The notes under the pieces were generated by a model that ran no database searches, had not been told where the DNA came from, and saw nothing but the letters and a program-made list of their open reading frames with translations. The position numbers and the translations under genes are program-made. From Bernardetiaceae bacterium (lineage in GTDB: Bacteria > Bacteroidota > Bacteroidia > Cytophagales > Thermoflexibacteraceae): a stretch of DNA of 64,000 bases. The DNA lies in assembly GCA_025057115.1 (NCBI GenBank), contig JANWWZ010000004.1, positions 124,001-188,000 of the forward strand, given 5' to 3'. Every line of letters starts with the position of its first letter. Position 1 is the first letter of the stretch. Below are positions 3,866 through 13,400 of the stretch, in pieces.

Positions 3866-5053
3866 TTACTCACTGCCTACATTCATACCGCTGACCTGAC
3901 GCCGATAGGTTTCCAGTGCCATCACATTGCTGCGAGCCACGAGTATTGCCGGCGGTGCACCGTTGGGAAAGACAATTTCAGTAAGGGTATCATTTGCGTG
4001 CCCTGTGCTTACTTTATAGCGGACAATTCTAAGTTTGCCTTCTGAGTTTTTTTTGCCGTCGCTTACAAAAACATACGTTTGGTCATCTTCGCGCATCAGG
4101 GCGGAAAGGGGTACAGTAATGGCTCCTTTAATGCCTTCTTTCCTCATCACTACAGCGCGGACGTTCATTCCTGGCAGGATAAGGTCGCCTTTGCGGGCAG
4201 CAAATTGCACAAATGCCGTAATAGCCCTAGTTTCGGGATTGATGGTGCGGGATACGCTCACTACCTTTCCCATCACGTTTTCAAAAGCATTGTTGATAAA
4301 ATCAATTTCCACTTCTTGTCCTTCACTGATGAGGTCGAGGTCTTTTTCATAGATAAAAATTTCGGCATAAAGTTGGCTATTATCTACAATTTCAGCTAAT
4401 TTAGTTTGTACAGAGGCTAACATTCCGATGGTAACGGGCAAATCAGTAATATACCCCTCTATGGGCGAGCGAATGGTAACCGTCGGGGTAATGACAGAAG
4501 TCTTGGGGTTTTTAAACTGCTCGGGATCGATATCCAAAAGTTGCAACTTTGCCCGCAGCGCCTTCTCGCGACTAATGGCAGCATTATACTTAGCTTCCGT
4601 AACTTGAAAATCCGCCAGCGCTCCTACATTGTTTTTGAGCAGTTCTTCCTGGCGTTTATACTCAACAGCGTAAAAATCTACTTCAGATTTAGCAGCAAGG
4701 TACTCATTTTGCAACTCGATCAGTTGCATGCTGCTTAGTTGCATGAGAGGTTGCCCTTTCCGCACTAGACTGCCTTTGCTGACGAAAATTTTTTCTACTT
4801 TGCCTTCAATATTACTACTAACGCTTGCGCTCAGATTAGGCAGAGAAGTTACCTTGCCATTAAGGTACACATAAGAGGTAATCGACTGACGACTAGGGGG
4901 TTGGAAATGAATTTCCATTGCTTGCAACTGCTCAGGGGTCAATTCAATAGTTTCTACTTGGCGGATTTGAGACATTTGCAGCGTGCTATCCTCTGGGCTA
5001 CTACATCCCCAAAGGAATAGCACAACAATAAAGTAATGCACCAGGCGGTTCAT
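3866..5053 (-). CDS. RND efflux periplasmic adaptor (membrane fusion lipoprotein, CusB/CzcB type)
   Basis: A 395-residue membrane fusion protein that bridges the inner-membrane RND pump to the outer-membrane channel. A lipobox ending at Cys17 (VLFLWGC) predicts a lipoprotein anchor. The HlyD/CusB pattern is clear: a lipoyl/barrel-sandwich half (GKVEKIFVSKGSLVRKGQPL, about residues 88-107), an alpha-helical hairpin, the second half-motif (RSPIEGYITDLPVTIGM), then beta-barrel and membrane-proximal parts. It begins 34 bases after the pump gene, so the two are co-transcribed. No His/Met-rich N-terminal metal-binding extension is obvious. The metal specificity cannot be read from the sequence. Confidence 0.9.
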   Translation of the reverse strand: MNRLVHYFIVVLFLWGCSSPEDSTLQMSQIRQVETIELTPEQLQAMEIHFQPPSRQSITSYVYLNGKVTSLPNLSASVSSNIEGKVEKIFVSKGSLVRKGQPLMQLSSMQLIELQNEYLAAKSEVDFYAVEYKRQEELLKNNVGALADFQVTEAKYNAAISREKALRAKLQLLDIDPEQFKNPKTSVITPTVTIRSPIEGYITDLPVTIGMLASVQTKLAEIVDNSQLYAEIFIYEKDLDLISEGQEVEIDFINNAFENVMGKVVSVSRTINPETRAITAFVQFAARKGDLILPGMNVRAVVMRKEGIKGAITVPLSALMREDDQTYVFVSDGKKNSEGKLRIVRYKVSTGHANDTLTEIVFPNGAPPAILVARSNVMALETYRRQVSGMNVGSE

Positions 5054-5087: not shown

Positions 5088-8000
5088 CTACTGTTCGCCG
5101 CGCAGGTATTTAAGGTAAATGATGGAGTAATTATAGTCGCGCAGCGTAGTGAGATAGTTCATTTCTATTTGGAAAGCTAGCTCGAGGTTTTGTAGGTACT
5201 GGTAATAAGTGATGCTACCTAGTCGGTAACTAGTGCGCGCATCGCGTACAATTTCTTGTGCTTCGCGCAGCCCAACGGTTTCAAAGTAGTTGAGGTTTTC
5301 CTTCGCTTGGCGATAAAGAGCTACCGCCTTTGCATATTCGGCACTAAGTTGCAGGTTTGTAATTTGGGCTTGCAGTTGAGAGATAATAACTCCTTTTCTG
5401 GCTGCCTTGATGTTAGCTTTGTAACTCCATAACCCAAAAGGCAGGGTAAGCCCTAGACGAAAACGGGAAGCCATCGGGGTGCCTCCCATCACTTCGCTGC
5501 CTGGAGTGCCTTGATTGAGAAAACCTACCTGTAAACCAGGAAGGAGTTTATTTCGCTCTATGCGCAACAGGCTTTGTTGTAAGCTCACGTTGCGCAAGTT
5601 GTAGTTTAAGATGGGATTGGTGGCAAAAGCGAGGGTATCGCTGGCATAGAGAATTCCCAAATCAGGAAGTTTAGCAAGGGGCTTATCAGGCAAGAGCGTT
5701 GTATCGCCTGCGCGTCCCAAAAGGGCTGCTAGCATCGCCCTGCCTCCTCTTAACTCTGCTTCTGCTTGCTTGAGGTTGTATTGTATGCGTTTATATTGGC
5801 TCTCTCCGTTGATGCGTTCTAAGTTGCTAATTTGCCCTACGCGATAGCGCACCTCATTGATGCGCAAAATATCATCGTAAATAGTATCTTGCCGAGTTAG
5901 CAAGAGGTATTTGGCAAGTAGAAACTGCAGTTCGTTAAAGGTTACTTTGGTCCTGAATACTAGCCCGTTAATGGTAATATCTTTTTCGGCTTTGGCTAGT
6001 GCTACGCGCCTTTGCTGGGCTTGAGCCTGAAAGGCGTACACAGTGGGAAACTCAAAAGTTTGCAACAGACCTGGGCGCAGGTCTTCTCCAGTGGGAGCTT
6101 CAAAGAGCAAATCCAAATTGGATACGTTGAATGCAGCAGGTTTGAGCAGTTGTTGTTGCTCAATGCGATAATCTGCTTGGCGTATTTCTGGATTTTTTGC
6201 CAGTGCAAGGCTAACAGCCTCTTCCATGCTTAAAGTAACTGCATTGCGAAATAACGGCGCTTGTGCTTGGGCAATTCCACCGAATATAACCAGAAATAAA
6301 GTCACAGTTAGCACTTTGGTGTTGATGTGTACATGTTCTATTTCTTCGTCTGCCTCTGGCGAAATATTCTTTGTGCGGTTTTTATTGACAATGCTGTAGA
6401 GCACAGGCAGCACGATGAGAGTCAAAATAGTAGCAGTAAACAACCCGCCAATTACTACTGTAGCTAAGGGCTTTTGCACCTCCGCTCCTACGCTGGTAGA
6501 AAGAGCCATGGGCAAAAACCCTAGTGCTGCCACTGCAGAAGTCATCAACACGGGTCGGAAACGTTCTTGCAAGCCTTTGATAACAGCATCTTCGGCACTC
6601 ATGCCGCGTCTGACCAGTTGATTAAAATGACTCACCAGCAAAATGCCATTCAGTACCGCGATGCCAAAGAGAGCAATAAAGCCCACTCCTGCGGAAATGC
6701 TAAAGTTCATATCTCGTAACAGGAGAGAGAAAACTCCTCCTACTGCTGAAAGGGGAACTACGGCGTAAATCAGTAGACTATCCCGTACATTGCCAAAAGA
6801 GGCAAATAAGAGCCCAAAGATGATGGATAAGGCAATAGGCACGACAATGCCTAGGCGTTCTTTGGCGCGGCGCAAATTTTCAAACTCGCCTCCAAACTCG
6901 AGCCGATAGCCAGGAGGTAACACTACATTTTTGTTGATTTTGTCTATTGCTTCGTAAACAAGGGACTCTATGTCGCGCCCGCGGACATTGAAGCCAATAT
7001 TAGCGCGGCGTCCTAAGTTTTCGTGCCCAATTTCAGAAGGTCCAATGTTTTCTTGAATGTCTGCCAGTTCTTTCAAAGGAACGGGATTGCCGTCTTTGCT
7101 TTCGATGAGCAGGTTTTTAATGTTTTCTGGGCGTACGCGGTCAGCATCTGAAAGGCGCAGCGTTAAATCAAAACGCTTGTCTTTTTCATATACCAGCCCT
7201 GCGGTAGCGCCTGCAAAGGCAATTTGTATGGCGCGATTCATTTGCTCTACTGTAATGCCGTAGGTAGCCATCTGCCGACGGTCGTACTTGATATTAATTT
7301 GGGGCAAGCCAAAAATTTTGCTTTCTTGTACATCTACTGCCCCAGGAATGGTGCGCAACAGGCGAATGATTTCATTAGATTTTTTTACAAGAGTATCCAA
7401 ATCATATCCATAGAGCTTTACGACAATATCTGTCCGCGCCCCTGCCATTAATTCATTAACTCGATTTTCAATAGGTTGCTGAATGGAAAGGACCAACCCA
7501 GGAAACCTGCGCATTTGTTCAGCTACCATTTCAGCGAGTTCTTCCTGCTTTTTGGTTTTTTTCCAGACTTCTTTGGGTTTGAGTACAACAATAGTTTCCA
7601 TTGCCTCCATCGCCTGGGGGTCGGTAGGTACTTCAGAAGTGCCAATTTTGGAAACTACGCGCTCTACTTCATCGGGGAATTTTTCCAGTAACATTTTTTC
7701 CACCTTAGTGGCAAGTTTGATGGATTCAGTCATAGAAGTGCCTACAGGAAGGTTCATTTCTACTACAAGGTCGCCTTCTTGCAGTTTGGGAACAAACTCT
7801 CCCCCGATGATTTTAAATCCTCCAATTCCCGCCGCCAAAATGCCAACGGCAAAAACAATAGTAGCGGGTTTGTATTTAAGGGCTAAGGTGATTAATGGCT
7901 TGAAAAGTTTGTAAGCGGCTTGGACAATTTTTTCAGAAAATCCGTGATCATGAGGGTCTTTAGGAGGACGCAAAACAAGAGCGCTCATCATGGGCACGTA

Positions 8001-9512
8001 AGTAATTGCCAGCAACAGCGCTCCCAAAATGGCAAAGCTCACCGTTTGCGCCATAGGAGTGAACATTTTTCCTTCAATGCCTTGTAAGGTCATAATGGGG
8101 AAGTACACTATCAAAATAATCGCTCCCCCAAAGACCACTGATTTTTTTACCTCTGAGGCTGCTTGAATGACTATTTCTTGACGCTCGCGATAAGTGAGCT
8201 TTGTGGGTTCCTGACTTTTGCCATTGAAGTTAATCCGTTGTTGAAAAGCCAGTGCCAAAAACAATACTACTGACTCTACGACAATGATGGCAGGATCGAC
8301 CAACAAGCCAAAGTCTATAGCTCCCAAACTCATGATATTTCCCACCACCCCGAAGTAGCGCATTAAAATAAAGGCAAAAAGCATTGCCAGAGGAATGACT
8401 GAAGCAGCCAGCAAACTTGCACGCCAGTTGCCCAAAAACAGGATAATGACAGCAACAACAATCAAAGCCCCTTCGATGAGGTTGGTGGCTACGGTCCTGA
8501 TGGCATTGTTTACAATTTTGGACCGATCGATAAACGGCTCAATAACCAACGAAGGAGGTAATTGCTTTTCTATTTCTGCCATTTTGGCTTTTACTCGCTG
8601 AATGACCTCATTGCCATTGCCTCCTTTTACCATCATAATAATGCCTCCCACTACCTCGCCTTGTCCGTTCATCGTCATGGCGCCGTAGCGGATAGCGCTG
8701 CCAAATTCTACCTCTGCCACGTCTTTGACCAACACGGGCACTCTGCCATTGTTTTTAACTACTGTGTTAGCAATATCTTCCAAACTGGTAGCTAACCCAA
8801 TGCCGCGAATGGTAAAGGCTTTGTTTTCTTTTTCGATGTAGGCACCGCCAGTGTTGCTGTTGCCTTCTGCTAGTGCTTTGTACACATCTTCAATAGTTAC
8901 CCCTAGGGAGCGCATTTGGTCTAGCTTCAGTTTGGCTTGGTATTCCTTTTTGTACCCTCCGAAGCCACTTACTTCTGCTACTCCTGGCACCCCAAGCAGT
9001 TGCTTGCGAATAAACCAATCTTGCAAGGTGCGCAATTCCATGGGCGAAAAAGATTTGTCTTTCAGGTCGCGAGGGCGGATAACGTACTGGTATACTTCTC
9101 CCAATCCCGTAGAAACGGGACCTAAGTAAGGTTCACCAGCGGCTTGAGGGATTTCATTTTTGATTTGTTGCAAACGTTCAAAAACTTGTTGGCGCGCCCA
9201 GTAAATATCCGTGTCATCCGTGAAAACCAGCTTGACCACCGACAAACCAAATTTTGAAATGGAACGGGTTTGCACCAAGCCAGGAATATTGGACATAGCC
9301 ATTTCGATAGGCGAGGTTACAAACATTTCCATTTCCAAAGACGCCAAGCTAGGGGTATAGGTAATGATATCTACCTGATTGTTAGTTACATCTGGTACGG
9401 CGTCGATGGGCAGATTTTTTAGCGAATATCCGCCAGCAATTGCCATAAGAAGCGTCAGGGCGCCAATGGTTAAAGGATTGCGCACACTGTAAGTAATGAT
9501 TTTGTCAATCAT
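5088..9512 (-). CDS. cusA: CusA/CzcA heavy-metal RND pump fused to a TolC-like outer-membrane factor
   Basis: A 1474-residue protein, about 430 longer than a normal CusA/CzcA. Residues 1-1045 are a complete HME-type RND transporter. PIDAVPDVTNNQ near residue 35 is typical, and the proton-relay acids D400, D406 and E413 in TM4 match the D/D/E of CzcA. After TM12 comes an acidic linker (EADEEIEHVHIN), a hydrophobic stretch near 1062-1078 ending in an AQA site that looks like an internal signal peptide, and then about 395 residues of TolC/CzcC-type outer-membrane factor (MEEAVSLALAKNPEIR). The fusion puts pump and channel in one reading frame, followed by the adaptor gene. Such fusions are known in Bacteroidota. 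Whether the protein is cleaved is not visible. Confidence 0.92.
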   Translation of the reverse strand: MIDKIITYSVRNPLTIGALTLLMAIAGGYSLKNLPIDAVPDVTNNQVDIITYTPSLASLEMEMFVTSPIEMAMSNIPGLVQTRSISKFGLSVVKLVFTDDTDIYWARQQVFERLQQIKNEIPQAAGEPYLGPVSTGLGEVYQYVIRPRDLKDKSFSPMELRTLQDWFIRKQLLGVPGVAEVSGFGGYKKEYQAKLKLDQMRSLGVTIEDVYKALAEGNSNTGGAYIEKENKAFTIRGIGLATSLEDIANTVVKNNGRVPVLVKDVAEVEFGSAIRYGAMTMNGQGEVVGGIIMMVKGGNGNEVIQRVKAKMAEIEKQLPPSLVIEPFIDRSKIVNNAIRTVATNLIEGALIVVAVIILFLGNWRASLLAASVIPLAMLFAFILMRYFGVVGNIMSLGAIDFGLLVDPAIIVVESVVLFLALAFQQRINFNGKSQEPTKLTYRERQEIVIQAASEVKKSVVFGGAIILIVYFPIMTLQGIEGKMFTPMAQTVSFAILGALLLAITYVPMMSALVLRPPKDPHDHGFSEKIVQAAYKLFKPLITLALKYKPATIVFAVGILAAGIGGFKIIGGEFVPKLQEGDLVVEMNLPVGTSMTESIKLATKVEKMLLEKFPDEVERVVSKIGTSEVPTDPQAMEAMETIVVLKPKEVWKKTKKQEELAEMVAEQMRRFPGLVLSIQQPIENRVNELMAGARTDIVVKLYGYDLDTLVKKSNEIIRLLRTIPGAVDVQESKIFGLPQINIKYDRRQMATYGITVEQMNRAIQIAFAGATAGLVYEKDKRFDLTLRLSDADRVRPENIKNLLIESKDGNPVPLKELADIQENIGPSEIGHENLGRRANIGFNVRGRDIESLVYEAIDKINKNVVLPPGYRLEFGGEFENLRRAKERLGIVVPIALSIIFGLLFASFGNVRDSLLIYAVVPLSAVGGVFSLLLRDMNFSISAGVGFIALFGIAVLNGILLVSHFNQLVRRGMSAEDAVIKGLQERFRPVLMTSAVAALGFLPMALSTSVGAEVQKPLATVVIGGLFTATILTLIVLPVLYSIVNKNRTKNISPEADEEIEHVHINTKVLTVTLFLVIFGGIAQAQAPLFRNAVTLSMEEAVSLALAKNPEIRQADYRIEQQQLLKPAAFNVSNLDLLFEAPTGEDLRPGLLQTFEFPTVYAFQAQAQQRRVALAKAEKDITINGLVFRTKVTFNELQFLLAKYLLLTRQDTIYDDILRINEVRYRVGQISNLERINGESQYKRIQYNLKQAEAELRGGRAMLAALLGRAGDTTLLPDKPLAKLPDLGILYASDTLAFATNPILNYNLRNVSLQQSLLRIERNKLLPGLQVGFLNQGTPGSEVMGGTPMASRFRLGLTLPFGLWSYKANIKAARKGVIISQLQAQITNLQLSAEYAKAVALYRQAKENLNYFETVGLREAQEIVRDARTSYRLGSITYYQYLQNLELAFQIEMNYLTTLRDYNYSIIYLKYLRGEQ

Positions 9513-9596
9513 TTTTTATGCTAGATCAGTTTTTCGAGAAACGCGCTAAACGATAATGCAGGTATAAAGGTTGAAGTAGCTCTTAAAGCGGCAACA

Positions 9597-9965
9597 TCAA
9601 AGGCGAAGCTGGCAAGCACAAATAAAAATTTTTCTACAAAAGTCAGTGGTGTTTTTGGTGAAATATGCGTTGCTGGAGGTAGAAATTAATAATGCTTGCA
9701 CGAAAGGTACGAGCATGAGAACGTGATTGCAGGACTGCCAGCGAGTATTCTGCTGTAAGAAGCGATGCCTTTTTTCGATTCGGTTAGTGCTGAGTTGATG
9801 ATTCTGATGTTCTAGCCATGAGATAGGCACGGAAGGAGGGAGATCTTCCTGCCAAGAGCAATTTTCGCAACTAGCCAGTTGATGTACCCAGTGAAACTTG
9901 TAATGCCCTGTGTGGAAAAAACACACTAGACACCCCCAGCTGATAATAACAAACAGAATCCGCAA
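9597..9965 (-). CDS. Small His/Cys-rich exported protein at head of metal-efflux operon
   Basis: A 122-residue frame, not recognised as a named family. It starts with TTG about 15 bases after the predicted transcription start; no ATG is available until about residue 84. The N-terminus (RILFVIISWGCLVCFF) is hydrophobic like a signal peptide or membrane anchor. The rest is unusually rich in His and Cys (HTGHYKFHWVHQ, CENCSW, and a C-terminal CRKIFICAC). It ends 84 bases before the CusA-type pump and lies behind a promoter matching the Bacteroidota consensus. This supports a real gene whose product may bind or sense the exported metal (inference). The alternative is a non-coding leader. Confidence 0.55.
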   Translation of the reverse strand: MRILFVIISWGCLVCFFHTGHYKFHWVHQLASCENCSWQEDLPPSVPISWLEHQNHQLSTNRIEKRHRFLQQNTRWQSCNHVLMLVPFVQALLISTSSNAYFTKNTTDFCRKIFICACQLRL

Positions 9966-9987
9966 GACTGATGTTAATTCAACGGTG

Positions 9988-10019
9988 CAAAATTAGCTAG
10001 AATACAAGTTATAACAAAA
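9988..10019 (-). promoter_or_regulatory. Bacteroidota-type promoter of the metal-efflux operon
   Basis: On the minus strand, TTTTTG (its TTG is the complement of 10015-10017) is followed after exactly 19 bases by TAATTTTG (complement of 9988-9995), which fits TAnnTTTG. Transcription would start near 9981 and run into the His/Cys-rich ORF and the CusA fusion gene. Confidence 0.65.
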
Positions 10020-10116
10020 AGGCTAAAAGAGAGCCCTTTACATTCGAAAGATGGCTTAGCGTTGGGAAAACTCCTTACAATTTTGAGTACTTTCAACCAT
10101 TGCCTTTGCATTCCCC

Positions 10117-10178
10117 GCCGTTGTTTGTGTCCTTGCAAACAACCCCTCTCTGCCGTTGTTCGTGTCCTCACGAACAAC
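10117..10178. repeat. Two inverted-orientation copies of a short palindromic repeat
   Basis: Copies at 10117-10143 and 10152-10178 begin GCCGTTGTT. The second holds a perfect 9-bp dyad, TTGTTCGTG at 10156-10164 and CACGAACAA at 10169-10177, around a 4-base loop. A partial third copy follows (CCCCACGAACAAAG, 10197-10210). They are reverse complements of the units at 10261-10332. Confidence 0.7.
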
Positions 10179-10260
10179 TTTCCTACTATTTCATGTCCCC
10201 ACGAACAAAGAAAATACTCGCCGCCGTGCTGTCGGGTTGTTTTTCAAGGCGTGAGTAAAG

Positions 10261-10332
10261 TACATTGTTCGTGAAGACACGAACAATGGCTAAAAGTACA
10301 TTGTCCGTGAAGACACCAACAATGGCTAAAAG
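10261..10332. repeat. Two tandem 36-bp units carrying the same palindrome
   Basis: Units 10261-10296 and 10297-10332 differ at only two positions. The first has the perfect dyad TTGTTCGTG/CACGAACAA around AAGA and is followed by TGGCTAAAAG. The second unit has one mismatch in each arm. Confidence 0.8.
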
Positions 10333-10446
10333 AGAGCCCTTTGCATTCGAAAGATGGCTTGGTGTTGGCAAAATTCCTTCAATTTTGAGTACTTTCAACC
10401 ATTGCCTTAAAGCGTTTCCAATCAGCAAGGGGAAGTGTTTAAGCAT

Positions 10447-10454
10447 TAACTTTG
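10447..10454 (+). promoter_or_regulatory. Possible -7 element of dnaE
   Basis: TAACTTTG fits TAnnTTTG and lies 22 bases before the dnaE ATG, a good distance for a short leader. No TTG is found at the matching -33 spacing, so the call is tentative. Confidence 0.35.
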
Positions 10455-10476
10455 TTTTTAGATAGTTCCTTCTTTT

Positions 10477-13400
10477 ATGCAATCCTTCTCCCATTTGCAT
10501 TGCCATACCCAGTTTTCTCTCCTTGACGGAGCAGCGAGCATCTCTGGGATGATGAAAAAAGCCCTCGCCGATGGCATGAAGGCAGTAGCCATTACCGACC
10601 ATGGCAACATGTTTGGCGTGTTTAAATTTGTCGCCGAAGCCGAAAAACATGGCATCAAACCCATCGTGGGATGCGAATTTTATCTAGTAGAAGACCGCCA
10701 TCGCAAAGAGTTTGGTAGGGATAGCAAAGATGTCAGATATCACCAATTGCTACTGGCTAAAAATCCCGAAGGTTATCGCAACCTTTCTAAACTTTGTTCT
10801 TTGGGCTACATCGAAGGCTTTTACGGCAAATATCCACGCATCGACAAAAAACTCATCGCCCAATACCACAAAGGACTTATTGCTACTTCCTGCTGCATTG
10901 GGGCAGAAATTCCCCAGGCTATTTTGCATAAGGGACCAGAAGAAGCCGAAAAACTACTCCGTTGGTGGATAGACCTTTTTGGAGAGGACTATTACATTGA
11001 ACTACAGCGGCATCACATTGAGAACATAGACCATACTGGCATGAGCCAAGAAGAGGTCAATCAAATCCTTCTTGGCTTTGCCCGAAAATACAACCTGAAA
11101 ATTATTGCTACTAATGATAGCCACTACATTGACCGAAAAGATGCCGAACCCCATGATATTTTGCTCTGCATCAACACAGGGGAAAAAAAATCTACTCCCA
11201 TTGGCGAGGGCAAGGGATTTCGCTTCGGATTCCCCAACAGGGAGTTTTTCTTTAAAACGCAGGCGGAAATGAATCAACTCTTTAGCGACCTGCCCCAAGC
11301 ACTGGACAATACCAATGAGATTGTCGATAAAGTAGAAAAGCTCAAACTTAAACGCGATATATTGCTTCCCAACTTTCCCTTGCCTGAAGGCTTCCGTACA
11401 CAAGACGAGTACCTTCGCTACTTGACCTTTGAAGGCGCAAAGAAGAGATACAGCACTATTACGCCTTTGATAGAGGAACGCCTCAGCTACGAACTAGAAA
11501 TTATACAAAAAATGGGATTTTCGGGCTACTTCCTCATCGTACAAGACTTTATTGCTGCGGCACGCCGCTTGGGAGTCTCAGTAGGACCTGGGCGCGGTTC
11601 GGCAGCAGGATCGGCAGTGGCTTACTGCATCGGCATTACTAATATAGACCCTATTCAATACAATTTGCTCTTTGAACGCTTCCTCAACCCTGAGCGCGTT
11701 TCCATGCCTGATATCGACGTAGACTTTGACGATGTAGGTCGCCAACGGGTAATTGACTATGTAGTAGAAAAATACGGTAGAAATCAAGTAGCGCAAATTA
11801 TTACTTATGGCAGCATGGCAGCTAAAATGTCGGTAAAAGACGTGGGACGCGTGTTGGATTTCCCTTTAGAGGAAACCAATCAACTAGCTAAACTCATTCC
11901 AGAAAAGCCCGGCATTACGCTGGCAAAAGCTTATGAAGAAGTACCCGAGTTAGCTGCCATTCGAAAAGGCAATGACATGCGAGCAGAAATCCTTAAAAAT
12001 GCAGAAATACTAGAAGGATCAGTGCGCAACACGGGCATTCATGCTGCAGGCATCATTATCGCTCCCAATGACCTGACAGAGTACATTCCCGTTTGCACTG
12101 CCAAGGAATCTAACTTGCTCATTGCTCAATTTGAGGGCAAGGTCATTGAAGAAGCAGGCATGCTGAAGATGGATTTTTTGGGACTGAAAACCTTGACCAT
12201 CATTCAGGATGCCCTCAAACTCATCGAAAAAAATCACAACAAAAAAATTGACATAGATAATATTCCCTTAGACGATCCCAAAACCTACCAACTCTACCAA
12301 CGCGGTGAAACCATTGGCACGTTTCAATTTGAGTCGGAGGGGATGCGCACCTACCTGCGCGAGCTCAAGCCCACTAACATTGAAGACCTCATAGCCATGA
12401 ATGCCCTGTATCGCCCTGGCCCGATGCAGTTTATTCCCAACTACATTGCTCGAAAGCACGGTCGCGAAAAGGTAGAGTATCCTCATCCCCTTTTAGAGCC
12501 CATCTTGAACTACACCTTTGGCATTATGGTGTACCAAGAGCAAATCATGCAGACGGCACAAGTGCTAGCAGGCTACTCCTTAGGCGGTGCAGACTTGCTT
12601 CGCCGAGCAATGGGCAAAAAGGACAAAGAAAAAATGGCAAAAGAAAAAGATAAATTCATCGCTGGGGCTAAAAAATTGCACAACATTCCAGAAAGCAAAG
12701 CCGAAGAAATTTTCGGCATTATGGAAAAATTTGCTGAATATGGTTTTAACCGCTCTCACTCAGCTGCTTATTCTATTTTAGCTTATCAGACCGCCTACTT
12801 AAAAGCCCACTATCCAGCCGAGTACATGGCTGCGGTGCTTACTCATTCCATGGGTAAGATGGAAGAAATTAGCTTGTTTTTAGAGGAATGCCGCCGCATG
12901 GAGCTTACTGTGCTCGGTCCAGATATTAACGAGTCCGATGCTACTTTTAGCGTTAATAAAAAAGGTCAAATTCGCTTTGGACTGGCTGCTATTAAAGGCA
13001 CTGGCGAGGCGGCTGTAGAAGCCATCATCCAAGAACGAACCAAAAACGGACCTTTTAAAAGCATGTGGGATTTTGCCCAGCGGATTAACTTGCGCCTTGT
13101 AAACAAAAAAACCTTTGAAAGCCTTGCATATGCAGGTGCATTCGACTGTTTTAGCGATATTCACCGCGCACAGTATTTTTACACGCCCGAAGGAGAAGGT
13201 TCCGGCATTGAAAAAATTATGCGCTATGGGCAGACAGTCCAAGCCTTGCACCTTTCAGCGCAAGCCTCGCTTTTCGGTAGCGCTACTGCAGCAGTGCCTC
13301 AGCCTAAAATGCCTTCCTGCCCGCCTTGGACAGAGTTGGAAAAACTCAAATTTGAAAAAGAAGTAGTGGGATTTTACCTCTCAGGTCATCCTCTCGACCC

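Follow-up and report, generated by a model that had tools for sequence, protein, structure and literature searches.

An overlooked small gene at the head of a metal pump operon looks, by comparison with published systems, like a sensor leader that lacks the usual stalling signal. The gene lies in the 64,000-nucleotide stretch of Bernardetiaceae DNA analyzed here (the window) and consists of a 122-codon open reading frame (ORF) that ends 84 nt upstream of the start of the pump gene. This ORF is a real gene, conserved within its genus. The features of the locus are listed below.

9988 to 10017, minus strand: promoter TTG-N19-TAATTTTG of the Bacteroidota -33/-7 type, its arrangement kept in all four genus members
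9597 to 9965, stop included, minus strand: candidate leader gene, a 122-residue ORF with a TTG start and syntenic homologues in all three other genomes of the genus
9897 to 9962, minus strand: hydrophobic N-terminal segment (residues 2 to 23), signal peptide or anchor, from hydropathy and a modeled helix
9813 to 9896, minus strand: conserved N-terminal block (residues 24 to 51) ending in QED..PS..ISWL, the proposed sensor part, from alignment A2 and pN below pS
9858 to 9869, minus strand: CENC, a CXXC motif (residues 33 to 36) present in this genome only, where relatives have YEDF in alignment A2
9639 to 9743, minus strand: variable linker (residues 75 to 109), near-neutral and of almost constant length, from identity counts and pN
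9600 to 9638, minus strand: invariant C-terminal block (residues 110 to 122, CRKIFICACQLRL) running up to the stop, a proposed arrest-like element, from identity and pN
9513 to 9596, minus strand: intergenic stretch of 84 nt between leader and pump, with no unusual fold in the window or in relative G002
5088 to 9512, minus strand: RND metal pump of 1,474 residues fused to an outer-membrane efflux (OEP) domain, with the CzcA-like signature DFGLLVDPAIIVVES
3866 to 5053, minus strand: periplasmic adaptor of the CusB/HlyD type, the next gene after the pump

Six-frame protein searches retrieved full-length homologues from all three other genomes of the genus (E values of 1.2e-11, 2.0e-9, and 8.8e-9), each directly upstream of the orthologous pump; the pumps are 86 to 87% identical. 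A search for homologues at this place in related genomes had been proposed as a check in an earlier, sequence-only reading of the locus, and it thus came out in favor of the gene. The 122-residue frame with a TTG start described in that reading is present at 9597 to 9965 on the minus strand, and all four copies in the genus begin with TTG. The G002 frame extends upstream of its TTG by just one codon; thus, no other upstream start is possible in that genome. No plus-strand ORF of at least 60 residues overlaps 9597 to 9965. The window protein is 33 to 38% identical to its homologues, which are 46 to 64% identical among themselves, and is the most diverged of the four copies.

Differences between copies are distributed by codon position (first/second/third) as 35/19/54 for the G001/G003 pair and 53/44/74 for the window/G002 pair. 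Nonsynonymous change is lowest at the two ends of the protein, with pN of 0.06 to 0.39 versus pS of 0.46 to 0.86 in the N-terminal block and pN of 0.07 to 0.36 versus pS of 0.60 to 1.0 in the last 13 residues (0.07 versus 1.0 for G001/G003), while the middle part is nearer neutral (pN of 0.46 to 0.64 versus pS of 0.64 to 0.90). Because pS is saturated in pairs that include the window copy (0.76 to 0.90), no dN/dS is quoted for them. Lack of conservation and random codon use, named beforehand as grounds for dismissing the ORF, are excluded by the homologues, the codon-position differences, and pN below pS. Among the 98 genomes searched, the best ORF matches outside the genus had E values of 0.012 or worse. 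A profile of the family (A2) retrieved only the genus itself (4/148 genomes), along with seven further chance-like matches (E of 0.007 to 0.09). A tblastn search of plasmids with the ORF returned nothing, comparison with Pfam and NCBIfam gave chance matches only, and no copies were seen beside the two other RND pumps of the same genome.

The claim that a promoter leads into the ORF was upheld by fit to consensus and by conservation. The element TTG-N19-TAATTTTG fits the Bacteroidetes -33/-7 consensus reported as TTTG/TANNTTTG (PMC6847099), and each of the four genus members has TTG-N19/20-TANNTTTG shortly before the ORF start. Taken alone, the pattern is weak evidence, with six matches in the window versus 1.44 expected. 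A sigma-70 scan yielded no promoter and no terminator, as expected for this phylum.

The protein is 121 to 122 residues long in all four genus members despite a variable middle. Conserved features are the N-terminal hydrophobic segment, QED..PS..ISWL(D/E), KR.R, and a C-terminal KIFIxxCxLRL immediately before the stop, in which LRL is replaced by FRL in one relative. Within the last 13 residues, 7 to 9 are identical between the window copy and its relatives (7 to 12 over all genus pairs). The linker retains only 3 to 6 of 34 identical residues in pairs with the window copy (pN of 0.61 to 0.64), and across all genus pairs the middle retains 3 to 13 of 34 to 36. An AlphaFold model, built on only three sequences, has a mean pLDDT of 55; it places a helix at residues 2 to 23, with pLDDT of about 80 in the first 20 residues, and is poor elsewhere. 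The N terminus had been called signal-like, and the hydrophobic segment and modeled helix agree with this, but no clear cleavage site was seen.

The protein had also been described as His/Cys rich, which is true of this copy but peculiar to this genome. Of the 122 residues of the window protein, 8 are His and 8 are Cys (13%), a content reached by none of 34 nested spurious ORFs of 80 to 180 residues in the window (0/34) and above the maximum of 8.7% among the 34 window ORFs of at least 250 residues. Histidine alone makes up 6.6% (8/122), short of the tenth that had been estimated. The relatives have 9/121 (G002), 3/121 (G001), and 5/122 (G003) His plus Cys, or 2.5 to 7.4%; their segment matching the Cys/His cluster is acidic, and CENC aligns with YEDF.

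The downstream pump had been labeled CusA type. Its transmembrane helix IV, DFGLLVDPAIIVVES, has the CzcA-like arrangement DFG...D...VE, and its best solved relative is ZneA, which is CzcA-like, whereas CusA has GAMVDAAIVMIEN at the aligned place; the label does not imply copper. The motif DFGx3DGAx3VEN is reported as the mark of HME1/HME2 divalent-metal RND pumps (PMC3637150). Compared with it, DFGLLVDPAIIVVES keeps the charged residues, with DGA changed to DPA and VEN to VES. A divalent metal seems a likelier substrate than copper. The signature did not separate pumps with Cys-rich leaders from those with His-rich leaders, as all pumps read have DFG...D...VE.

The leader lies 84 nt from the pump in the window and 217, 366, and 265 nt from it in the relatives. 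Neither the window nor G002 shows an outstanding stem-loop at the start of the pump gene (z from -0.23 to 0.67). Folding of the whole intergenic stretch gave z of -2.2 and -3.0 in G001 and G003, which have a stretch of another length and sequence. In all four genus members, the start codon of the pump falls within an inverted repeat, AATGATT-GACAA-AATCATT (9495 to 9513 in the window), which the coded MIDKII of the pump may explain. Beyond these seven AATGATT/AATCATT pairs, no conserved hairpin hiding the pump start was found.

The same slot was surveyed across Cytophagales at 34 pump loci, 30 from one pump search and 4 of the 8 from another, the other four being already among the 30. At 23 of the 34 loci, a same-strand ORF of 80 to 180 residues with a hydrophobic N terminus lies within 400 nt of the pump, against 0.73 in shuffled sequences; these limits were fixed after some of the ORFs had been viewed. 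Two loci (L049 and L056) do not pass this filter although an ORF exists there. Most of the slot ORFs (15/23) end in PP, within the last 15 residues. Of the eight without a terminal PP, four belong to this genus, two to genus g6, and one to G005; the eighth, L038, passes the filter but probably represents part of a longer protein.

A family without a name, here termed family D, consists of small, apparently exported proteins encoded nearly always as leaders of CzcA-type pump operons. It was detected at 67 places, spread over 57 of 148 Cytophagales genomes, and has the consensus HYxEH...LSFxDFLxxHY...LPF...QPPK. At the 30 loci fetched, the next gene is a pump (n = 27), an outer-membrane efflux gene (n = 2), or neither within 1.5 kb (n = 1), and all 30 proteins end in PP. 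None of eight scanned members matched NCBIfam (best E of 0.55), and three scanned against Pfam gave chance matches only. Proteins of DUF6660 (PF20365), present in 19 of 98 genomes, precede a pump at 13 of 15 fetched loci and are related to family D (hhalign probability of 95). By their anatomy, family D and the DUF6660-like proteins are of a known kind, that of CutF-like proteins and CruR; a literature search found no experiment on either. Individual loci add some detail. The leader at L040 ends in WQPPKIS, and an ORF upstream of another pump (L045, 768 to 1280) carries RGPP followed by a final four residues; this sequence is described as prone to stalling (PMC12992588). Four genomes of the window's family (G008, G010, G011, and G012) carry a leader of family D at a second pump, and in G008 and G012 different pumps of one genome have different leaders.

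Family D and DUF6660 hold the slot that the window family holds, ahead of pumps of the same kind. Unlike the window family, those proteins end in PP, mostly as (W/F)QPP(K/R), and are His or Cys rich. Models of family D and DUF6660 matched nothing in the four genomes of this genus (G000 to G003), and hhalign gave no significant link between the window family and the PP-ended families (probabilities of 0.04 to 2.4). Profile comparison covered families D, E, B, C, and F, none of them with a significant result. In the pump tree, the window's clade has a support of 0.997 and includes Pseudarcicella (L058). Leaders in this clade end in LRL or FRL (this genus), LRC or LIC (g6), FRLTPF (G005 and L056), and FTPPPQV (L058), and two members of the clade have no visible ORF; the PP-less C termini differ by lineage, with KIFIxxCxLRL here and ...YCSLRC or ...ALIC and FLFRLTPF in sister lineages. 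The simplest reading of these endings is that a PP leader is ancestral and its C terminus changed later; independent recruitment may also account for them. Among nine genomes of the window's family with the orthologous pump, two (G009 and G011) show no ORF at this position. The distance from WL to the C-terminal motif is 69 to 70 residues in the window family, and that from FLxxHY to PP is mostly 70 to 84 in family D, where the anchors were picked by eye and, of 30 members, one gave 16 and five were not measurable; this likeness is only a hint.

Published leaders offer the closest comparison. The CutF-like set is described as comprising short proteins, exported by Sec, that carry PP close to the C terminus and have a same-strand neighbor within 1,000 nt; members precede OEP, ACR_tran, and other metal genes, with 40% in Bacteroidota after normalization (PMC9973294). 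For CutF itself, from Rhodobacter capsulatus, periplasmic copper binding is reported to delay export and favor translation of the next gene (PMC9973294), and the protein is reported to be degraded after export. The window protein resembles CutF in being short, with an export-like N terminus and first place in a metal operon, and resembles the CutF-like set in its special C terminus near the stop; that set, as described, includes Bacteroidota and ACR_tran/OEP neighbors. At 121 to 122 residues, all four genus proteins fall below the published limit of 150, and the pump begins 84, 217, 366, and 265 nt downstream, within the published 1,000. Unlike the CutF-like set, none of the four has PP in the last 15 residues (0/4), no distinctive stem-loop marks the downstream start in the window, and profile comparison with the PP-ended families of this order gave no significant link. 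A Cys/His motif is found in the window copy, with CENC and 16 His/Cys, but is not conserved in the three homologues. With neither the PP nor a profile link, membership in the CutF-like family is not claimed.

CruR, a DUF2946 protein from Bordetella pertussis, is reported to depend on a CXXC, on RAPP at its C terminus, and on sufficient spacing (PMC9426467), and its arrest has been demonstrated in vitro (PMC12992588). As described, it shares with the window protein the operon head, an export-like N-terminal segment, and the CXXC of the window copy, as well as near-constant spacing to a C-terminal motif and, in the relatives, a long intergenic stretch. It differs in that the window family lacks RAPP, does not conserve the CXXC in the genus, and has no DUF2946 match in Pfam.

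Given these likenesses, we consider the chances evenly balanced that the window protein is a nascent-chain metal-sensing leader resembling CutF and CruR in which the proline arrest motif has been replaced. By the logic of those systems, the C terminus would be an arrest-like element, the fixed-length linker a spacer, and the N-terminal block a sensor. A small exported protein, encoded first in a CzcA-type pump operon, would act in cis: metal would bind the N-terminal block during export of the chain and alter a ribosome pause at the C-terminal KIFIxxCxLRL, and the pause would set the amount of pump, either via Rho or by way of translation at the pump start. This pump clade would have replaced the ancestral proline pair, and this genome would have re-tuned its sensor by exchanging acidic ligands for Cys/His. 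This reading is supported by the small, apparently exported, PP-ended proteins that hold the slot elsewhere and by the near-constant length, near-neutral linker, and invariant C terminus at the stop. It is weakened by the absence of PP in all four proteins, the missing profile link, and putative ligands that are not conserved, as well as by the lack of a pump-start stem-loop in the window and G002 and of a visible slot ORF in G009 and G011.

The main alternative is a CzcI-like role, which we think less likely but still a good rival. In this case, a periplasmic protein would modulate the completed pump in trans; it might, for instance, quench the export of essential zinc or cobalt when these are scarce. 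CzcI of Cupriavidus metallidurans, a periplasmic protein whose gene opens czcICBA, reportedly quenches CzcCBA activity (PMC10127602); together with CzcI2, it is named as an exception without the proline motif (PMC9973294). The window protein is likewise a short, export-like product of the head of a CzcA-type operon with no C-terminal proline motif, and the downstream pump carries a CzcA-like signature. The likeness is one of position and anatomy; the ORF has no NCBIfam match beyond chance. A near-neutral middle of almost constant length and constrained last residues better fit a nascent-chain element than a folded binder, and the model is mostly of low confidence, although a mean pLDDT of 55 from only three sequences is a weak point.

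A metal-linked role had been proposed from the sequence, as either a chaperone or a sensor for the pump. Synteny, and analogy with the published leaders, speak for such a role, and a sensor fits better than a chaperone; the argument from His/Cys ligands finds no support. A periplasmic chaperone or buffer that uses His/Cys ligands to feed the pump would account for the 8 His, 8 Cys, and CXXC, above any nested spurious ORF of the window, and for the operon position, but we judge it improbable, as the ligands are absent or much reduced in all three homologues though gene and pump are kept. Riboswitches occur in slots just upstream of metal genes, so the conserved entity could be an RNA element rather than a protein; substitutions that follow codon structure and the absence of any Rfam match at an E of 1 or better over 9300 to 10600 make this very unlikely. 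We give equally little credence to the window copy being a decaying remnant of a gene that works in the relatives. It is the most diverged copy (34 to 38% identity versus 46 to 64% among the others), yet its 122 codons are open, and start, stop, length, promoter, and C-terminal block are kept, although pS is saturated.

Among the literature found, the metal-sensing leaders with a published mechanism, CutF and CruR, come from Proteobacteria. If the window protein works as a nascent-chain leader, such leaders would also head CzcA-type pumps in Bacteroidota, could lose the proline motif used to search for them (this one would escape the published filter), and could change their sensor ligands within one genus. 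Family D offers a large set for direct test of the leader idea. A wider proposal, which we hold only tentatively, is that of a metal-responsive leader able to stall with no proline pair. In one Bacteroidota clade of CzcA-type pumps, lineage-specific C termini would have taken the place of the PP arrest motif, while the sensor block exchanged acidic for Cys/His ligands between close species, which would allow quick re-tuning of metal preference.

The DNA upstream of the promoter carries repeats of its own. Between dnaE and the ORF promoter, a dispersed palindromic repeat, GTTCGTG-NNNN-CACGAAC, is clustered at 10124 to 10322. It has 89 exact places in this genome, versus 0 for a control pattern, mostly in small clusters, and a sequence close to it also lies between the ORF and the pump in G003. 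On either side of the cluster lies a direct copy of a sequence of about 85 nt (10018 to 10106 and 10321 to 10408); the two have diverged (86 to 88% identical), and an 18-nt probe from this sequence finds only those two places in the genome.
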